A stretch of DNA of 64,000 bases from Vicia villosa (Eukaryota > Streptophyta > Magnoliopsida > Fabales > Fabaceae), in assembly GCF_029867415.1 (NCBI RefSeq), contig NC_081184.1:77536364-77600363 (forward strand). The letters are read 5' to 3'. Made by a program: the position numbers and the translations under genes. Positions 24,112-63,216 of the stretch are shown here, piece by piece (position 1 is the stretch's first letter; each line of letters opens with the position of its first letter). The notes under the pieces are model-generated. The model worked only from the letters and a program-made list of their open reading frames with translations, was not told where the DNA came from and did not search any database.

Positions 24112-26532
24112 ATAGAGAAGGAACTGTTAGTGTTTGGAAACAGACCACCTATCCTGGATGGCTCTAACTATGACTACTGGAAATCTCGTATGGTAGCAGT
24201 CATTAAGTCAGTGGACAACAAGGCCTGGAGAGTTGTTAAAAGTGGATGGAAACATCCTGAGAAAATTCTGGAAGATGGAACCACTGTTATAATTCCTGAA
24301 ACTCAATGGAGCAAATCTGAAGAAGAGTTAGCGTTGGGAAATTCCAAGGCCCTAAGTTCTTTGTTCAATGGTATTGACAAAAACATCTTCAGACTTGTAC
24401 AACACAGTGAGCTGGCTAAAGAAGCTTGGGATATTCTCAAAACAGCACATGAAGGTACGTCCAAGGTAAAGATGTCAAGACTTCAAATACTTACCAGTAA
24501 GTTTGAAAATCTCGAGATGAAAGAGGATGAAACCATTTATGAGTTTTACATGAATGTCCGAGAGATTTCAAACAACTCTGCAGCCTTAGGTGAGAAAATG
24601 ACTGCAGAAAAACTGGTAAGGAAGATCCTCAGATCACTGCCTAAGCGATTTAATATGAAGGTAACTGCCATAGAGGAAGCTCAAGACATCAACAACATGA
24701 AGCTGGACAAACTTCTTGGTTCTCTTTAAACCTTTGAGTCAAGCATCTGTGAGCCTGTTGAAAAGAAGAACAAAAACATTGTGTTTGTCACCAACACAGT
24801 TGATGATTCAAAAGAAAGCAATGGTGTATGTGATGAGAATTTATCAGACGCCATAGCCATGCTTGGAAAACAACTCAACAGACTTATTAAAAGGGTTGAT
24901 TAGAAGTCCATACCCAATGTCAAGAACACTTCCTATGACATCATTCAGACATATGACTCAAGCAAAAGATTCAAAGCTGAGGAGAAGCCCTATCTAGGGA
25001 AAGTGGTTCAATGTCATGGATGTGAAGGATTCGGACACATTAGAGCTGAATGTCCTACCTACCACAAGGAGCAAAAGAAAGGACTGAATGTTACTTGGTC
25101 TGACAAAGACTCAGATTCCGAAAAGGAAACTGCAAAGCATGTCACAGTTTCAACAAGAATCTATGAATCTTATGATGATTCCAGTGATGATGAGCTAACC
25201 TTCGATGAACTAGCTTCCTCGTACAAGAAGTTGTGTAGGGAGAATGTTGAAGTCTGCAAACAAGTGGAGAAGCAAGTGGTGATCATAAGAGATCTAGAAT
25301 CTGAAAAGATTAAACATCTTGTAACCATATACTCCCTAAGTAGTGAAGTAAGCATGTTGAACCACAAACTTGATCAAATGACCAAGTCATTCAAAATGTT
25401 GAACAATGGATCTGATACTCTAGAAGAAATTCTGGAATCTGGACAAAGATCAGGGGACATGTCTGGAGTGGGATTTGTGGCTAAAGAGGAATTAATCTTT
25501 GAACTCAGGAGGATAGAATCCAAGACGTGTGTGACTAACCAGATGTCAATCCAAATGTCACAACATCAAGGAAACAGAAGAATGAGGCTCTCAAAGAAAA
25601 GTTTCCAGAAATGGAGGTGTCATCACTGTGGAAGATTTGGTCACATAATGCCATTCTTTTTCAGTCTATTTGGATATCCAGACCAAACTCAACAAGTCAA
25701 ACTTGATCATGATACTAGTAACAGGAAGCATTCTGGGATAGCTAAGAATATTGCTCTAATAGAACACACCACTCTAAGAATGCCCTCCAAAGAAGATTGG
25801 TACCTTGACAGTGGCTGCTCAAACCATATGAATGGTAGCATGAACTCACTGGAAAACCTCAAACCTGAGGAATCCAACTATGTAACTCTTGGTGATGGAG
25901 ATGTAAGAGAAATCAAAGGTGTTGGCATGATAGAAGGTCAAGGTGTTCCTAACTTACATAATGTTCTACTTGTGCAAGGACTGACCACAAACTTTATAAG
26001 CATCAGCCAACTATGTGATGAAGGAATGTATGTCAGATTCTTTAAAGAAGAGTTCATTGTTACCAACAAAGAAAATGAAGAAGTCATGAAAGGAGTCAGA
26101 TCTTAAAATAATTGTTATCTATGGGAGCCAAAAAATTTCAAGTCTCTAACTACTTATCCCATGACCAATACAATAAATGAAGAAAAATATCAAGAAAGAA
26201 CCATCAAATCAGAAGCTTCTACTCCCAGAACAAGAATCCTGACAGAAGGAATGGATGAGTCTGATGATGAGATCTTCATTGAAGAACTCACCATCGAAAA
26301 ACTAGTTATTGGATACTATGAGATGTGTGTACTAAATGGGGAATTGAGCAAGAGATTGAAAATGTATGAAAATGCTTATGCACTGTTACAAGAAGAAAGA
26401 GTAAAACTCATAATGAACATTGATGATCTAGAAGGAGAGGTGCAAGACACAAAAAAAAAGGAAAGAAGGCAAAATAAGAGGCTCAGCACACTCCTATCTC
26501 AGCCAAAAGGTGCTATCAATGTGGTAAGATAG
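24112..26532 (+). pseudogene. Copia gag / GAG-pre-integrase pseudogene, copy 2
   Basis: One frame runs from a lost start (ATA at 24112) to 26532, interrupted by TAA 24727-24729, TAG 24901-24903 and TAA 26104-26106. In order: UBN2-type Gag, zinc knuckle CHGCEGFGHIRAEC (C-x2-C-x4-H-x4-C) near 25012, an acidic coiled-coil tail, a degenerate second knuckle (CHHCGRFGHI, final Cys missing), then WYLDSGCSNHM at about 25800, the protease/GAG-pre-integrase boundary motif of copia polyproteins. The frame then passes directly into a second acidic, coiled-coil gag-tail segment. No integrase or RT motif follows. Confidence 0.8.
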
Positions 26533-27374
26533 GTCACCTGAGGTTCACTTGTCCTGAGACTCAGGAATCTTCCTATAGAAGTACATCTCATCAGGAAAAC
26601 CTGACTAAGGAGAAAACATCGCAACAAAAGACACGGGTGAAATCTAGTCACTCAAGCCATCACATACCTAAAGAGAAAGTTGTAAAGAAAGCAGTAAACT
26701 CCAGAAAAAGGAAATCCAGACGAAACAAACATCACAAAAAGGATGTAGGTTTCTCAGCTACAAACAGGAACAAAACAATCATAAAGGATGTTGTGAAAGG
26801 AAGTGAGTTGACTCACTCATCAGATCAGGTCAATGTTAATACAAATGTCTTAACATCAAAACTGGGTGAGAGCTCAACTGTGCAAATTGAGACGAACAAA
26901 GCATCCGGGATTGATGAATGTTCTTCAGTAAAAATTAAAAGAATCATTCAAAAGGATATCACTGCTCCAAATGATCTTCCAAGGAAGGGATCCATCAACA
27001 GCCAGGATCCCCTAAGAAAGAAGATTCTAGAGATAGACCAAGTCTCAAGATTCTGGATGGAAAGAGCTCTAGACTCACAGTCACACTTGAAAGATCAAGT
27101 AAGAAAGGAGAGCAGGATTCTTGTTATCACAGCTAAAGATGCTGAGCTGATGACAAGTATGATTTCTACTAATCTATTGAACTGGTTTAAATCAAGCTGG
27201 ACATACCTTGGTATATCTCACCAAAATATAGAGTGGAATGTCGTAACTATGCCTTACTACATCAAAAACAAGGTGGAGGACAAATGGAACCTCATTCAAA
27301 AGTCAACTACTGATCCATATATACAGAAGATTGTGTATTGTGAAGAACGACTGTTTTGTAACTGTCTCTTGTGA
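26511..27374 (+). pseudogene. Second gag-tail module, zinc knuckle plus basic region
   Basis: After a frameshift near 26505 this frame begins with a clean knuckle, CYQCGKIGHLRFTC (C-x2-C-x4-H-x4-C). It continues into a Lys/Arg-rich segment (KSRRNKHHKK) and a region I do not recognise, containing FWMERALDSQSHL. It runs without a stop into LTR sequence, ending at 27374. It parallels the first acidic-tail-plus-knuckle module of the same element. The unrecognised part could be a decayed SIRE env-region ORF, but I cannot show that. Confidence 0.55.
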
Positions 27375-27852
27375 TCCACGCTATTATCTTTGATGATTGC
27401 GTTGGAATTAGTTTGTGTTTTAGTTGTGTCACTCTAAGCTTTTAAGCACGAGTGTGTGTCTCTTGATTGAAGCTTTTAAGTAGATCAAGGTGTGTTTTTG
27501 AAGTGTGTCTTCTATCTGTAATTGTTTATTGTGTATGTGTTATCACTACTGTGATTGAGGGGGGGTGGAATGGAGATATTCCATATCCAGGTAGAACCTA
27601 GGTAGAAGGGTCATTGGGTAGTGATTAAGAGAGGAGTTGTAAACTGGGAGTTTAGCTCTGAATTGATACAGCTAATAGTGGACTTCATCCCTGGCTTGGT
27701 AGCCCCCAGAGTAGGTTGTTTGAACTGAAATGGGTAAACAGTTCTGTGTGTTCTTTATTGTTTTATGTTGTTTGTTATTATTGTCTGTGCTGCGTAATTG
27801 TGGATGTCATAACATCCAGTTTGACATTGAGCGTGTATTACTAGAATTTTCA
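27325..27852 (+). repeat. Partial copia 3' LTR
   Basis: From AAGATTGTGTATTGTGAAGAACG onward it matches 23741-24040. It includes about 225 bases (roughly 27533-27758) that are absent from both left-end copies. Part of this extra segment (CCTGGCTTGGTAGCCCCC) resembles the LTR-like sequence near 35341, so it probably belongs to the ancestral LTR and was deleted from the left-end lineage. Confidence 0.7.
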
Positions 27853-28496
27853 AAGGTAAAAGAGCGAAACTTTTCCACTCGGTTGAAACCTTCTAACAAA
27901 TGGGAAATCCTATTTATTTTAATTTATAATAAATAAAAACTAGACACCATTTTATTTAATTAATCCACTTTTTCTCTCGGTTGAACCTCCTAACTGAAGT
28001 GAAATCTTATTTATTTTAAATTTATAAATAAAAAAAGCAAGACCACTTTTTCCATTAAAAAAATGCAAGGCCACTTTTCCCCTCTGTTCTGATCGAGAAA
28101 AAATGTAATTTATTTATAATTTAAAAAAAAAGAAAAAAAAAGGAGCCACTGCAACTTTTCCATTATGTTGGTAGTTCCAACTAAGGTGAAATCTTTTTCT
28201 TTTTTTTACTTTTATTAATAGAAACGCGTCAAATTTAAAAGTTTCACTTGGTAATTTGTATAAATCTTGATGAAAATTTTATCACTAAAAGAGATTTTTA
28301 TAATTATGCCACATAAAGTACATTAGAAATTTTATCCATTTAAATATAAGATTTTACATAACGTACATTAGAGATTGACAATTAACTAACACATTGCACA
28401 AACACAAACTCTTAGTTCTAACTAAATTAGAACTAATTTTATTTAGAATATATGGATGACACTGTAAATACATAATTGATGATTTTTCACATCATA
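27853..28496. other. AT-rich intergenic sequence downstream of the BURP gene
   Basis: About 640 bp with A- and T-runs and repeated phrases such as CTCGGTTGAACCTCCTAACT. No open frame or recognisable element; it separates the copia LTR from the gene's polyadenylation signal. Confidence 0.6.
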
Positions 28497-28502
28497 TTTA
28501 TT
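28497..28502 (-). terminator. Probable polyadenylation signal of BURP gene
   Basis: AATAAA on the minus strand, about 50 bases beyond the TAG stop (28553-28555). The position is normal for a plant near-upstream element; AT-rich sequence makes chance matches common. Confidence 0.5.
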
Positions 28503-28552
28503 TTCAGATATCACTTTAGAACAAGTTCAAACTTAATCAATGTGTAAATGTG

Positions 28553-31205
28553 CTAGATGACACAAGAATTGCCACGAGACTCGCTCACATTGGGTACCCA
28601 AGCAATAGCCTTGTTACCAATAAAATGGCAAATGGGGACATTTTCTTGTTTAACATTGAGAACTTCATGTAACACATTAGGATTCATACCTCTAGTGTCA
28701 TGGTGGCAAATAGTTAGTGCTTTCGATTTAGTTCCATCGGAGGCCACCAATGGGACCATATAAGTTGTTGTTGCATTTATTGTGTGACAATAAAATACAA
28801 CTTTTTTAAAATTTAATCTATGACACATCACTGCTTTGTCTCCAATTTTCTTTATATCCTCCACTACATATTGGTCTTGACTTTGAGAAAATGAACTTGA
28901 CATCACTTTTATATTCTTTCCAAGCTTTGAAATGGCAAAATCCATCATTGATTCTAGTGATGAGGCACAATGTTTGTCTTCCCCTATTGCAGATGGAGTT
29001 CCACAATAGTTGTTAAGAATGTGAACTTCTTTTTCATCTAATGTGTGTGCTACAAAAGGTTGATTTTCTTTTTCACTTTCTTTTTTATCCCATGCACTAA
29101 ATTCAAAATGTTTCTTTGCTTTTTCAGCTTCTTTTTTATGCCACCACACAAACGTTCCAAAAGGTTGATTTTGTTTTTCAACTTCATTTTTGTACGACGC
29201 ACTAAATCCAAAGGGTTGATTTTCTTTTTTAGTATTTTTTCTATCCCATGCACTAAATTCAAAAGGCTTCTTTTCTTTTTCAGTTTCTCTTTTATGCCAC
29301 CATACAAACGTTCCAAAAGGTTGATTTTCTTTTTCAATTTCTTTTTTATAACATGCCCTGAATCCAAAAGGTTTCTTTTCTTTTTCAGTTTCTCTTTTAT
29401 GCCACCACACGAACGTTCCAAAAGGTTGATTTTCTTTTTCAACTTCTTTTTTATCATGAACACTAAGTCCACAAGGTTGATTTGGTGTTTCAGTTTCTTT
29501 TTTATGCCACCAGACAAAAGTTCCAAAAGGTTGATTTGTTCCAATATTTTCCATTTTGGTTTTGTCGCTCTTAATGGTTAATCCAAAAGGTTGATTTTCT
29601 TTTTCATGTGTTTGCCCAAGCCCTTTGCGAGTCTTAAAAGTCTGGCGTGCATTTTTGACAGGTACTGGTGTTGTTGATTTTGATGATTGGATATCTGAAT
29701 GTTTAGGGATTCCTAAGTTCATTGTCTTCCCAGGATATAGGTCGTGTTCAAAAAAGACAGTCCAATATTGTTTCTCTTCATGACTTTTGATAGGTATACT
29801 TACTTCTTTATCTGCAACATCAAATGTTAAACCAAATACACAATCATGAATAGTCTTTGTAATCATACATATAAACCAACTAAAATGAAATCATATATAA
29901 AAGTACATGCCGATGTAAAATATATAACTTATAAAATATTTAAATATGTAAATGATTCCTACATATATTAAGAATTTTTATTTTAAAAAAATTTTATTTT
30001 GTTTTTATTCATTGTAAATATTACATGTTTTTACTTTTCTTCCTTTTTGTTTTGTTTTAAAAAATTAATCTTTATAATATGTAAAATATTTGATTTTAAT
30101 TATTTAAATAAGTACTAAAATAATTATTACAAACACTAATTTTAATATGAATCAATATTTATAGAGAATAAAATGTCATACGGTTATAAAGAATAAAATA
30201 TTTACAAATTTTTTTACAAATACAATATTTATTACATGAACAAAAACCTAAATGTCATACTTTTATAAAGAATAAAATCTTAACAATTTTTTGAGTCCGA
30301 AAAGATTATAATGTATGATAAATCTTTCCTTCGAAAAATTTAAAAGTAATGTAAAACTTATTCCTAAAACTATCATCAATTATTGGGGTAAAAAATGATG
30401 TTTCAGATTTATCGATTTAATTTAGAGATAGATTGCAAAAATTAATAAATATATACTATAATTAAAGATAATCTTATAAAAAATAATAAAAAATATTATA
30501 AAAAAAAAGAGTTTGCATATGGAAAGAGATAATATTAAACATTTAATTATATGACAAAGGCTAGCATATAATATTATAAAGACCTCAACATAGAAATATA
30601 TAATATTAAGAATTTTAAAAATATATTTTAAAACAACGTTTTAACTATAAATTCCTCAACTTATGATCGAAGAGTACAAATTAATAAGATTTTATTTATA
30701 TTTTACTAACCAGACAATAGAAGATCTGAAAGTGCCTTAGGTATAGGAGTGTTTGGCCAAACAGATTTCCAATATTCTTCTTCAGATTTAAATCCATTAA
30801 TTCCCAAGAGAGTCAACTGCAAATATATTCAAGTTAGATTGTCATTGTAATAAAACACATATTTAATGTAAAAAAAAGTAATATTAATTATATATTTAAT
30901 GACAAATCTTAAATTGTTTTTTCTTTAAATTTTACTATTTTAGTCATTTTTTACCGGACTATTTTATTCCCGGCAACATTAAAACCAAAACTAAATTAAT
31001 TTTGTTTGTGGAGACATTCCTTTTAGGGAGTAATAACATGAATAAGTAAATAAATCGATAATTTTGCTTATATAAATTATTTCATGATCATTCCAAATAA
31101 TAAAATATTGATAGAAAGTTGAGACAATTAACTACAAGTGATCAAGCAAAGAAGACAACAGCTTACCAAAAAGAGAGCTAAAACAGATAGACTTTTAAAC
31201 TCCAT
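28553..31205 (-). CDS. Fused burpitide precursor and BURP-domain peptide cyclase
   Basis: Three exons: 31205-31167, 30816-30711, 29811-28553. Introns are GTAAGC...TTTGCAG (350 nt, phase 0) and GTTAGT...GTTGCAG (899 nt, phase 1). They assemble into 1404 nt, 467 residues. Residues 1-20 form a signal peptide (MEFKSLSVLALFL plus LTLLGING); next comes the BURP-family N-terminal block YWKSVWPNTPIPK. The BURP domain starts with the FF motif (YWTVFFEHDLYPGK, about 64-77). An 11-unit Lys/Glu-rich repeat (about 122-306) follows, then the rest of the domain with C-H-x10-C-H-x25-C-H-x24-C-H-x8-W (about 378-453), complete. Four repeat units contain QPFGTFVW. Plant BURP-domain peptide cyclases are copper-dependent and link a Trp side chain to the Gly backbone of such cores (lyciumins); in peanut AhyBURP the core lies within the cyclase itself. 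I infer secretion, self-cyclisation, then proteolytic release. It could instead be a USP-like storage or wall protein. Confidence 0.88.
29144..29167 (-). other. Core peptide 4, QPFGTFVW (residues 264-271)
   Basis: Preceded by Gln-Asn and followed by Trp-His-Lys-Lys. Second half encoded ACG TTT GTG TGG. Confidence 0.9.
29300..29323 (-). other. Core peptide 3, QPFGTFVW (residues 212-219)
   Basis: Preceded by Glu-Asn and followed by Trp-His-Lys-Arg. Second half encoded ACG TTT GTA TGG. Confidence 0.9.
29405..29428 (-). other. Core peptide 2, QPFGTFVW (residues 177-184)
   Basis: Preceded by Glu-Asn and followed by Trp-His-Lys-Arg. Second half encoded ACG TTC GTG TGG. Confidence 0.9.
29510..29533 (-). 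other. Core peptide 1, QPFGTFVW (residues 142-149)
   Basis: Preceded by Thr-Asn and followed by Trp-His-Lys-Lys. Codons CAA CCT TTT GGA, then ACT TTT GTC TGG. Confidence 0.9.
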
Positions 31206-40536: not shown

Positions 40537-40550
40537 ACTCTCCCCCACTA
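40537..40550 (-). other. Polypurine tract of Tekay element
   Basis: Minus-strand TAGTGGGGGAGAGT directly precedes the 3' LTR. Confidence 0.85.
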
Positions 40551-42264
40551 GAATATTTTCGTCCTCGAAAATAGAAATTTACCTGATTCAAACAACTCGG
40601 AATAGGAGTCTCGCATCTTGCTCTCCAATTCCCAGGTCAAACTTTCTCCAGCAGCTCCTAACCAAATAACTTTCACCAATGCAATCTCCTTGCCTCTTAG
40701 AACCTTCATCTCGCGATCCACAATTCGCACCGACATCGTCTCCACTGTGAGATTATCACGCACTTGCACATCGTCCATCTGAATCACATGAGACGGATCG
40801 GAAACATACTTTTGGAGTTGTGACACATGAAACACATCGTGCAAATTAGCAAGATTTGGCGGTAACGCCACACGGTAAGCAACTTTCCCAACTCGATCTG
40901 ATATTTGATATGGACCAATAAAACAAGGAGTGAGCTTTTTAGACTTCAGAGCTCGCCCAACACCAGTCATAGGTGTGACCCTCAAAAATACATGATCACC
41001 AGCTTGTAATTCCAAATCTTTCCATCTCTTGTCATGGTAACTTTCATGTCTACTTTGAGAAGCTTTCATCTTATCTCGAATAAGCTTCACTTTCTCAGTA
41101 GTCTCCCTAACAATCTCGGGTCTAAGTACCACGCTCTCACCCGATTCATGCCAACACAACGGAGTCCTACACCTCCGACCATACAACGCCTCAAAAGGTG
41201 CCATCCCAATACTAGAATGGTAACTGTTATTGTAAGTGAACTCAATCAACCGAAGATACGTATCCCACAAACCTCCCTGCTCAAGAACACATGCTCTTAA
41301 CAAATCCTCCAATGACTGAATAGTCCTCTCGGTCTGACCATCCGTTTGTGGATGATACGCCGTACTCAACCTCAACTTAGAACCCAACGCCTCTTGTAAA
41401 CTCTTCCAGAAATCGGAAGTAAACCTCGGATCTTTATTCAACACAATACACAAAGGAACACCATGCAACTTCACAATCACCCTGACGTATATCTCTGCTA
41501 ACTTCGCAATCGGGAAAGTGATGTTAATAGGTATAAAGTGTGCTGACTTCGTAAGCCTATCAACAATCACCCAAATCGAATCAAATCCTCTCAAGGTATT
41601 AGGTAATCCTGTTACAAAGTCCATCGAAATGCTATCCCATTTCCATTTTGGAACTTCTAACGGTTGCATCAACCCTGCAGGCTTCTGATGCTCGATTTTT
41701 GACTTCTGGCAAGTCAAACAAGCATACACAAATTGTGCCACATCACGTTTCATACCAGTCCACCAAAACAAACTCCTCAAGTCTTGATACATCTTTGTAG
41801 CTCCTGGATGAATACTCAAACTGCTTCTATGACTCTCTTCAAGAATCACTTTCTTAATATCTTCATCATTAGGAATGCAAATACGATCTCAGAATCTCAA
41901 CACACCACGCGCATCTAACTTGAAATCATCATTCTCAAGTCGATTGGTTCCTACCATCAAATCCACCAACTTCACATCTAGCTTTTGAGCCTCTTTGATA
42001 TTGTCGAGAAAGTCATTGTTAATCCTTAACATTCCCAAAATAACACTATGCGGTGTCACTTCACAAACTAAGCTCAAATCTCGGAACTGCTCAATCAACT
42101 CCAACTCCTTAGCCATCATAGCCGACATATGCAAAGTCTTTCGGCTTAAAGCATCGGCCACAATATTAGCTTTTCCGGGATGATAGTTCAAACTGAAATC
42201 ATAATCCTTCAATAATTCTAACCACCTTCGCTGCCTCATATTCAACACTTTCCGATCAAAAAGG
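40548..42264 (-). pseudogene. Tekay pol, 3' part: RNase H end, integrase, chromodomain
   Basis: Continues the RNase H frame after the Athila insertion (HPGKANIVADALSRK at the RNase H end). Then come the integrase zinc-binding region (HPGATKMYQDLRSLFWW, CLTCQKSK), the catalytic core with D (WDSISMDFVTGLP), D (NKDPRFTSDFW) and E (Q-S-L-E-D), and a C-terminal chromodomain-like region ending near WELESKMRD. An in-frame TGA at 41889-41891 lies before the integrase, at a position where CGA (Arg) is expected. Chromodomains of this clade direct integration into heterochromatin. It is not functional in its present split form. Confidence 0.88.
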
Positions 42265-60550: not shown

Positions 60551-63216
60551 TACTTTAAACTCTTATGGTCACTAAACACTTCGAATCTAGAACCATAAAG
60601 ATAATGCCTCCAAATTTTCATCACAAAGACCACTGCAGCCAACTCTAAATCATGCGTAGGATAATTCTTTTCATAAGTTCCCAACTGTCTAGACGCATAA
60701 GTCACCACTTTACCATTATGCATAAGCACACCACCTAACCCCATCAGACAAGCATCACAGTACACAACAAAAGGCTTTCACGGATTAGGCAAAGTCAAAA
60801 CTGGAGCCGACGTCAACCTCTTCTTCAACTCATTGAAACTTTCTTCGCATTGAATATCCCACACAAAAGCTTTTCCCTTGCAAGTCAATCTTGTTAACGG
60901 AAGTGCCAATTTAGAAAATGCTTCGATAAAACGTCTATAGTAACCGGCTAAACCCAAGAAGCTTCTAATCTCAGTAGCTGATTTCGGAGCTTCCCATTGT
61001 AACACATCATCAACTTTAGAAGGATCCACGGTAACGCCATGAACAGAAATGACATGACCAAGGAAACTAACTTCACGCAACCAGAATTCACACTTAGACA
61101 ACTTGGCATACAATTGCCTCTCTTTCAGAACCTGCAACACAACTCTCAGATGCTCTTCATGTTCTTCTTCAGATTTAGAGTAAATAAGAATGTCATCAAT
61201 GAATACCACTACAAACCGATCCAAATAAGTATGAAAAATATGGTTCATGTACTCCATGAATACTCCCAGCGCATTAGTAACACCGAAGGGCATCACTAAA
61301 TACTTGTAGTGTCCATATCGAGTCCTAAACGCGGTCTTCTGAATATCATCTTCTTTTACTCTAATCTGGTGATATCCGGACCTCAAATCAATTTTAGAAA
61401 ACACACTAGCACCCACCAATTTATCCATCAAGTCATCAATTCTTGGAAGCAGATACTTGTTCTTGATCGTCACTTTATTCAATTGCCGATAATCAACACA
61501 AAGTCTCATACTTCCATCTTTCTTCTTTACTAACAACACGAGCGCTCCCCACGGTGATCCACTTGGTCTTACAAACTTTTTATCAAGAAACTCTTCTAAT
61601 TGCTTCTTCAATTCAGACAACTCAGATGCAGACATCCTGTACGGTGCCATAGAAACAGGTCTGGTACTAGGTACAAGATCAATCGCAAACTCAACTTCTC
61701 TTTCTGGAGGCACATCAGGAATTTCATTTGGAAACACATCAGGAAATTCTCGCACCACCTTTAGCTCATCAATTCTAACTTGATTCTTTAAAGATAATGA
61801 CGCCATCAACGAGAACATATGTGCTTCTTCTTGCATCAATTGCCTCAACTGCTTACCAGTTAACAAACCAACCCCTTCTTCTTCGGGAGAAGAAAACCTC
61901 AAGGACTTGTTAAAACAGCTGATATGAACATAGTTATACTCTAACCAATTCATACCCAAGATCACATCTAATCCACTTAACGGCCAACAAATCAAGTCAA
62001 CAGCAAAGTCTTTGTCGAAGATTGACAAAGGACACTTTGAACACATCAGAGAAGTAGTCACCGATCCCTTAGCTGGAAGATCGACAACCATCTCTCCATT
62101 CATGGAAGACAACATAAGACCCAATCTTTCAACACAATCAGAAGCAATAAAACAATGAGTAGCACCAGTATCAATAATAGTGATTAAAGGAGTACTATTA
62201 ATGAAACATATACCTCTGATGAGTCGGTCTCCACTAGCTGTAGGAGTCCCAGCTAAAGAAAACACCTTTCCACCGGATTGTGCCTTCTTCTTTGGACACT
62301 GGCTACCAATGTGTCCCTCTTCGCCGCACGTGAAACATACCATGTCCTTATGCTTGCAATCAAACATTGCATGTCCCATCTTACCACATCTGAAACACTT
62401 CCTCGCATCAATAGTACAAGCATTGCTCTTATGACCAGGTTGACCACACTTAAAGCATACAATCCTAGCAGGAGCATCTCCCCCACTAGACCTCTGACCA
62501 TGAGTAACTCTTTGTTTCCCTTTACCAGCATCATATGGTTTCCCACGGCTTTGTTGATTCTTTCCCCTTCTATCACTAACCATCTTGTGATGAGCATTAC
62601 TATCTTCCTCAAAGATCCTACAATTGCCAACCAAATCAGAAAACAAACGGATCTTTTGATACCCAACAACCTTCTTAATCTCCGAGCGTAACCCATTCTA
62701 AAACTTGATGCTCTTAGAAAATTCAGCACCTTCGCCATCAAAGTGAGGATAGAACTTAATCAACTCAGGGAACTTGGCAGCATACTCGGTCACAGACTTG
62801 TTCCCTTGTGTCAACTATAGGAATTCTATCTCTTTCTTACCTCGAACATCTTCAGGATAGTACTTCCTCAGAAATTCCCTACGGAACACATTCCAAGTGA
62901 CTTCCTCACCTGAAAACTCCAACCTAGCAAGCGTCTCCAACCACCAATCATCAGCTTCCTTAGCCAGCATATGAGTGCCATATCTGACCTTCTGAGCAGG
63001 AGTGCAATCCATAACATGGAAGATTCGCTCGAGCTCCTTCAACCAATCAAGAGCACACTCAGGGTCATGCGTACCCTTGAACACCGGCGGATTCTCCCTT
63101 TGGAAAGTCGCCAAACTACGAGATCCAACATTCTCGTCAACATTCGGTTAGTTCTGCATAACCTGAGCCATTTCTTCCAAAGCAGCAGCTATCGCAACAT
63201 CATTCCATCCAGCCAT
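60551..63216 (-). pseudogene. Tekay gag-pol, 5' part: gag, knuckles, protease, RT, RNase H start
   Basis: ATG at 63216 (MAGWNDVAIAAALEEMAQVM). Gag core FKGTHDPECALDWLKELERI and WNVFRREFLRKYYPEDVR. Three successive CCHC knuckles follow: [42 protein letters not shown]. Then protease [13 protein letters not shown] with [19 protein letters not shown] and catalytic [10 protein letters not shown], and the RNase H start ([23 protein letters not shown]). Nonsense codons at 63148-63150, 62815-62817, 62698-62700 and 60778-60780; no frameshift. The frame continues at 42264. Confidence 0.9.

Follow-up and report, generated by a model that had tools for sequence, protein, structure and literature searches.

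Four QPFGTFVW cores inside a USP-type BURP protein of hairy vetch: a probable fused lyciumin-type burpitide precursor

The window analysed here, a 64,000-nucleotide stretch of the hairy vetch (Vicia villosa) genome (contig NC_081184.1, positions 77,536,364 to 77,600,363), contains on its minus strand, at positions 28553-31205, a gene whose classification as a fused lyciumin-type burpitide precursor and cyclase is well supported by the sequence, the predicted fold of the protein, the family tree and the occurrence of the same core in pea. We put the probability at about 0.75 that the encoded protein, as its sequence suggests, is self-modifying, i.e. that the copper site of its own USP-type BURP domain links the indole nitrogen of Trp8 to Gly4 of each core. 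A preceding sequence-only reading had proposed that a lyciumin-like cyclic octapeptide results; the class assumed in that proposal has held, and that the octapeptide is indeed made is what we infer by analogy with known lyciumins.

The gene, its BURP domain and its core array

In the spliced gene model, three exons are joined in frame and encode 467 amino acids followed by a stop codon; the introns of 350 and 899 nt both have GT/AG ends. The protein is 100% identical over 467 amino acids to the NCBI entry 'embryonic abundant protein VF30.1-like [Vicia villosa]' (P0001), which, together with the intron ends and the open frame, bears out the complete three-exon gene of the earlier reading. A TATA-like element lies 54-56 bases 5' of the ATG, and the N-terminus is signal-like as judged by hydropathy only (mean Kyte-Doolittle value of 2.71 for residues 6-19). 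The features of the gene, all on the minus strand, are:

31167..31205: exon 1 (39 nt), with the ATG and the opening half of the signal-like N-terminus; GT donor, splice in frame, identity with P0001
30711..30816: exon 2 (106 nt), remaining signal-like stretch and EEYWKSVWPNTPIP segment; AG acceptor, GT donor
28553..29811: exon 3 (1259 nt), N-terminal BURP strand, core array, BURP catalytic part and stop; AG acceptor, stop codon
29705..29764: N-terminal BURP strand segment WTVFFEHDLYPGKTMNLGIP, ahead of the array; phmmer alignment to 8SY2, predicted strands 67-69 and 78-80
29033..29596: array of 11 modules of 17-20 residues each (residues 121-308), 4 canonical and 7 degenerate
29510..29533: core 1, QPFGTFVW, residues 142-149, exact match
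29405..29428: core 2, QPFGTFVW, residues 177-184, exact match
29300..29323: core 3, QPFGTFVW, residues 212-219, exact match
29144..29167: core 4, QPFGTFVW, residues 264-271, exact match
28592..29032: BURP catalytic part, residues 309-455, Pfam profile positions 63-216 (PF03181, E 1e-45)
28820..28825: CH motif 1, C378 H379, invariant across all 62 rows of alignment A1 (see below)
28784..28789: CH motif 2, C390 H391, likewise invariant in A1
28703..28708: CH motif 3, C417 H418, likewise invariant in A1
28625..28630: CH motif 4, C443 H444, likewise invariant in A1

The CH spacings of 10/25/24/8, followed by Trp453, and the PF03181 match confirm the BURP domain with an intact four-CH signature, the consensus spacing of CH motifs in BURP domains serving as the yardstick. 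The four copies of QPFGTFVW were likewise recovered, as exact DNA matches in the window compared to none in 100 shuffles. The array of 188 residues, 36% of which are charged, is located between two parts of the BURP domain, after the FFEHDLYPGKTM strand. In all four cores Gln1 is preceded by Asn, and a second Trp follows directly (QPFGTFVWW). The degenerate modules read QPFGLTIK, QPCGLSVH, KPFGFRAC, KPFEFSAW, QPFGFSAS, KHFEFSAW and QPFVAHTL.

Among the closest known counterparts is AhyBURP of peanut (PDB 8SY2/8SY3), a USP-type protein with the core QPYGVYTW that is the source of legumenin/lyciumin I. The vetch protein shares with it the sequences flanking the core on both sides, the four CH motifs, the N-terminal segment and the predicted fold; exon 2 and the start of exon 3 align with residues 10-74 of the AhyBURP chain. 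In AhyBURP the core follows an FFEHxLxPGK strand, at the same position as the vetch array, and the USP-type layout with the core between the N-terminal BURP strand and the catalytic part was thus found in vetch. The two proteins differ in that AhyBURP has one core with Tyr6, whereas the vetch protein has 11 modules with four canonical cores of another sequence and Phe6. An AhyBURP-like fold with a disordered array is predicted, the predicted local distance difference test (pLDDT) score of the model being below 50 for residues 100-273 and 278-303.

Relatives in other legumes and in the vetch genome

A total of 124 homologues were collected, 93 of them in a first NCBI set, from which 62 entered alignment A1 and the tree (31 were left out). 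The four-CH pattern is kept in 120 of the 124, and 46 contain a QPxGxxxW core (118 cores altogether), with two or more cores in 20. Positions 5-7 are the most variable, while position 3 is Phe in 81/118. Asn or Asp precedes Gln1 in 63/92 cores of multi-core homologues compared to 7/26 of single-core homologues, although the rows are related and not independent.

QPFGTFVW itself is present in three homologues, i.e. the vetch protein and the pea proteins (listed at NCBI under Lathyrus oleraceus) P0002, which has four copies plus QPFGTTAW, and P0004, which has three. The pea followers (WYKK, WNEK, WNKK, SDKL and CDKT) differ from those of vetch. In a tree of the non-array parts, these three proteins fall with other Vicia and pea proteins into one clade of 11 rows (100/97), separate from a group of 10 rows that includes single-core QPYGVYTW proteins. 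Strict orthology of the vetch gene to P0002 and P0004 is not claimed, because the inner order of the clade is unsettled. The tree does not include AhyBURP itself; P0061-P0070, which are closely related to it, group in a clade distinct from that of the vetch protein. The VF30.1/USP proteins of vetch, faba bean, pea and Medicago share the wider clade and the gene name, and several have multiple cores, their arrays carrying QPFGFWAW, QPFGFWIW or QPFGFFSW.

The vetch genome has 92 PF03181 matches, of which 51 were read, window included, and 41 remained unread. Of 46 stretches fetched, 42 had an open frame and the CH pattern. At least eight of these loci carry an xPxGxxxW core upstream of the CH pattern, and at least nine do if the window gene is counted:

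L022 (C502:572000-581000): QPFGTFVW
L055: QPFGFWAW
L058, L059: QPFGFWAW and QPFGFWIW
L060: LPFGVWIW
L062: QPFGINTW
L063: QPLGTWIW
L064: QPFGFWAW

The window gene and L022, as well as L058 and L059, look like pairs of alleles or recent duplicates. The exact QPFGTFVW pattern matches seven times in the genome, four times in the window and three times on scaffold C502. When up to two mismatches were allowed, 23 matches were obtained compared to 49 for a backward control; the mismatched ones were thus attributed to chance, and only the seven exact matches are informative.

The C502 copy matches window positions 27323-29598 at 95.9%, and further flanks on both sides align at 88 to 95%. Ahead of its array 57 bases are missing. 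The first core is QPFGISFW and is followed, within its module, by an in-frame TAA; the three QPFGTFVW cores of this copy lie beyond the stop. As the heterozygosity of the sequenced hairy vetch plant has been estimated to be 3.14% (PMC10659084), the copy is most simply the other allele, broken; it is probably a broken second allele, with a recent duplicate as the alternative.

Several observations stand beside these. QPFGAW is a related core type with Trp at position 6; proteins of vetch, pea and Medicago contain repeats of it, and those of soybean, Cajanus and Vigna a single copy. Its carriers are:

L057 (C7:104018200-104023400), with five copies
P0021, P0022, P0027, P0030, P0039, P0041 and P0047

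USP-type BURP proteins of Canavalia gladiata contain QPMGVRFW twelve times (P0031) or seven times (P0043); this looks like a separate expansion, P0031 lying outside the vetch-pea clade and P0043 not being in the tree. Seven other long open frames of the window were scanned, and four of them match retroelement families above the cut-off (copia-type gag, Pol, integrase and reverse transcriptase). The gag frame at 990-1589 has a nearly identical counterpart at 24130-24729. Frames noted in the window are:

990-1589
24130-24729
25003-26106
40548-41849
60778-62646

Proposed product and competing explanations

In AhyBURP, two type II copper centres are bound through the four Cys-His motifs within a cleft that the core overlies; the enzyme requires O2 and acts within its own subunit (PMC11253845). 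By analogy, two copper ions would be held by four His in the cleft of the vetch protein, the array, being anchored at both ends, would pass its cores one after another into this cleft, and O2-driven radical chemistry would cross-link them in cis. Cleavage at the Asn preceding Gln1 could then come from a vacuolar protease with specificity for Asn/Asp, and trimming would remove the follower (WHKKE...). The seven degenerate modules might serve as spacers or represent cores that have decayed. Pyroglutamate would form from Gln1, as can happen after proteolysis, and the bond would be that of the lyciumins, in which the Trp indole nitrogen is joined to an unactivated carbon, that of Gly4 in legumenin (PMC11253845).

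The expected end product would be pyroGlu-PFGTFVW with one Trp-Gly link. Its [M+H]+ was computed to be 962.4407, reproducing the value of 962.441 predicted earlier. With Phe at position 6, the Tyr6 oxygen that closes legumenin's second ring onto pyroGlu1 is lacking, so that a monocyclic product is expected. For the precursor, the computed values of tryptic peptides before and after loss of 2 H are 838.404 and 837.397 for ENQPFGTFVWWHK (2+), 1096.523 and 1095.515 for MENIGTNQPFGTFVWWHK, and 837.912 and 836.905 for QNQPFGTFVWWHK; the cores at residues 177 and 212 yield one identical tryptic peptide.

Several points weigh against self-modification as the function of this protein. The product is predicted here from sequence and a modelled fold, and the low confidence of the model in the array means that no core is seen in the cleft. 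Seven of the 11 modules are non-canonical, each lacking Gln1, Gly4 or Trp8. The C502 copy, at about 96% identity and with a TAA in its first core module, indicates that the gene may be dispensable and, be it allele or duplicate, counts against an essential role. In faba bean P0011, a double-domain protein outside A1, Trp replaces one CH cysteine in the first domain copy. A glutaminyl cyclase gene is co-located in beet (PMC11253845), and a similar arrangement was considered for vetch and dropped, as no match was present near the gene and all four PF05096 matches are on C2. Lastly, neither the number of cores modified per fused molecule nor cis action with tethering at both ends was found in the available parts of the literature searched.

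The loss of residues in the seven modules and the stop codon in the C502 copy would also suit a low-complexity array, decaying or structural, within a seed protein that retains its BURP domain and makes no cyclic peptide, as would USP relatives such as P0053 and P0060, which have no QPxGxxxW core. We nevertheless consider this unlikely, because the CH residues are kept, pea carries QPFGTFVW with different followers, and the four window cores are identical as protein despite four synonymous changes in three codons (though they were picked by motif). The followers of these cores show no synonymous and five amino-acid changes, compared to no amino-acid change in the cores (Fisher p 0.008), and over five genes (window, L055, L057, L059 and L064, with L022 and L058 excluded as near-duplicates) the ratio of synonymous to amino-acid changes is 9:3 for cores and 12:36 for followers (p 0.002). 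It should be noted that our argument does not depend on this selection test, since the modules were chosen by their core motif and few amino-acid differences in the cores are thus partly built in.

Cyclization of the cores by a different bond or over a different length, such as through Trp9 of QPFGTFVWW, is distinctly improbable. The second Trp does follow every vetch core, and among the homologues only one residue is more frequent than Trp at position 9 (25/118); however, this position is variable, being Ser or Cys in two of the three copies of pea P0004, and Trp8 is the linked residue of known QPxGxxxW lyciumins. As eight further loci among those read encode related cores, the gene could also be intact but silent, with lyciumins made by a working paralogue such as the QPFGFWAW genes on C5, C6 and C4. 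Complete splice sites, the open frame, the TATA-like element and the NCBI gene model, none of which is a transcript, speak against silence, and we regard it as hardly probable at all.

Modules of the type xPFExxxW occur at residues 229-238 and 281-290 of the window protein and also in P0003, P0008 and P0017. Trp8 is kept in 12/20 modules with Glu at position 4, compared to 73/114 with Gly, 1/13 with Ala, 0/21 with Ser, 0/4 with Val and 3/4 with Arg, all from related rows. It is conceivable, though rather unlikely, that such recurring Glu4 modules (e.g. KPFEFSAW) are a second substrate class giving a novel Trp-Glu link and, jointly, that the single core loop of USP-type proteins became, in the vetch-pea-Medicago group, an array held at both ends, with one copper site working through several cores in cis. 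As the rows are related and a single base change turns Gly into Glu, Glu4 modules may instead reflect shared ancestry or decay. For KPFEFSAWDR the computed values are 641.814 unmodified and 640.807 after loss of 2 H.

Known precursors and what the vetch array may mean

Multi-core fused lyciumin precursors, exemplified by LbaLycA, and single-core USP-type ones, exemplified by Sali3-2 and AhyBURP, are already known. LbaLycA of goji resembles the vetch protein in being a multi-core fused precursor, with twelve cores and lyciumins A, B and D as products, but it carries its cores in an N-terminal domain of repetitive sequence (PMC11253845), whereas the vetch array is within the BURP domain; a layout with repeats ahead of a whole BURP domain was not found in the vetch protein. 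Expression of LbaLycA in tobacco leaf yields the corresponding lyciumins (PMC11253845), and thus multi-core fused precursors work in plants. Soybean Sali3-2 is a USP homologue that likewise has an internal lyciumin core (PMC11253845), in its case a single QPYGVYTW.

The split burpitide precursors (PF10950/DUF2775; ST, SST) show a weak N-terminal likeness to the vetch protein (E 0.019, residues 25-57), already in print (PMC11991032), but the score of 16.2 bits for the N-terminal piece is below the cut-off of 22.5, and the likeness reached E 0.05 or better in 3/62 homologues. Split precursors have no BURP domain and have been proposed to give Tyr-linked pentapeptides (PMC11991032); the vetch protein, with its BURP domain, does not belong to this class.

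The exact string QPFGTFVW was not found in the open-access literature searched (5.39 million papers). Two papers there contain at least one of six other cores; among the matches listed, only QPYGVYTW was present, in the review PMC11253845. The search with the core proposed in the sequence-only reading thus gave no literature match and the same octapeptide in pea. That the core is unrecognized among described burpitides therefore stands for the literature searched, whereas NCBI already holds the gene and systems of this kind have been described; taken together, this makes the protein likely to be a new member of the plant lyciumin family. What sets it apart is the core QPFGTFVW and the position of the array between two BURP parts, an arrangement that makes the multi-core question testable. 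According to PMC12186524, work on fused and split cyclases had been confined to the modification of single cores until that study tested the split enzyme ArbB2, which modified all three cores; a maximum of two turnovers is mentioned there for AhyBURP.

If self-modification of the vetch protein is true, hairy vetch and pea make a lyciumin that is not named in the literature searched, and the vetch genome alone encodes at least five lyciumin-like cores. Both species serve as feed and food, so it would be useful to know of any stable cyclic peptides they contain. The gene would also offer a naturally occurring case in which to count the cores that a fused BURP cyclase modifies within its own polypeptide.
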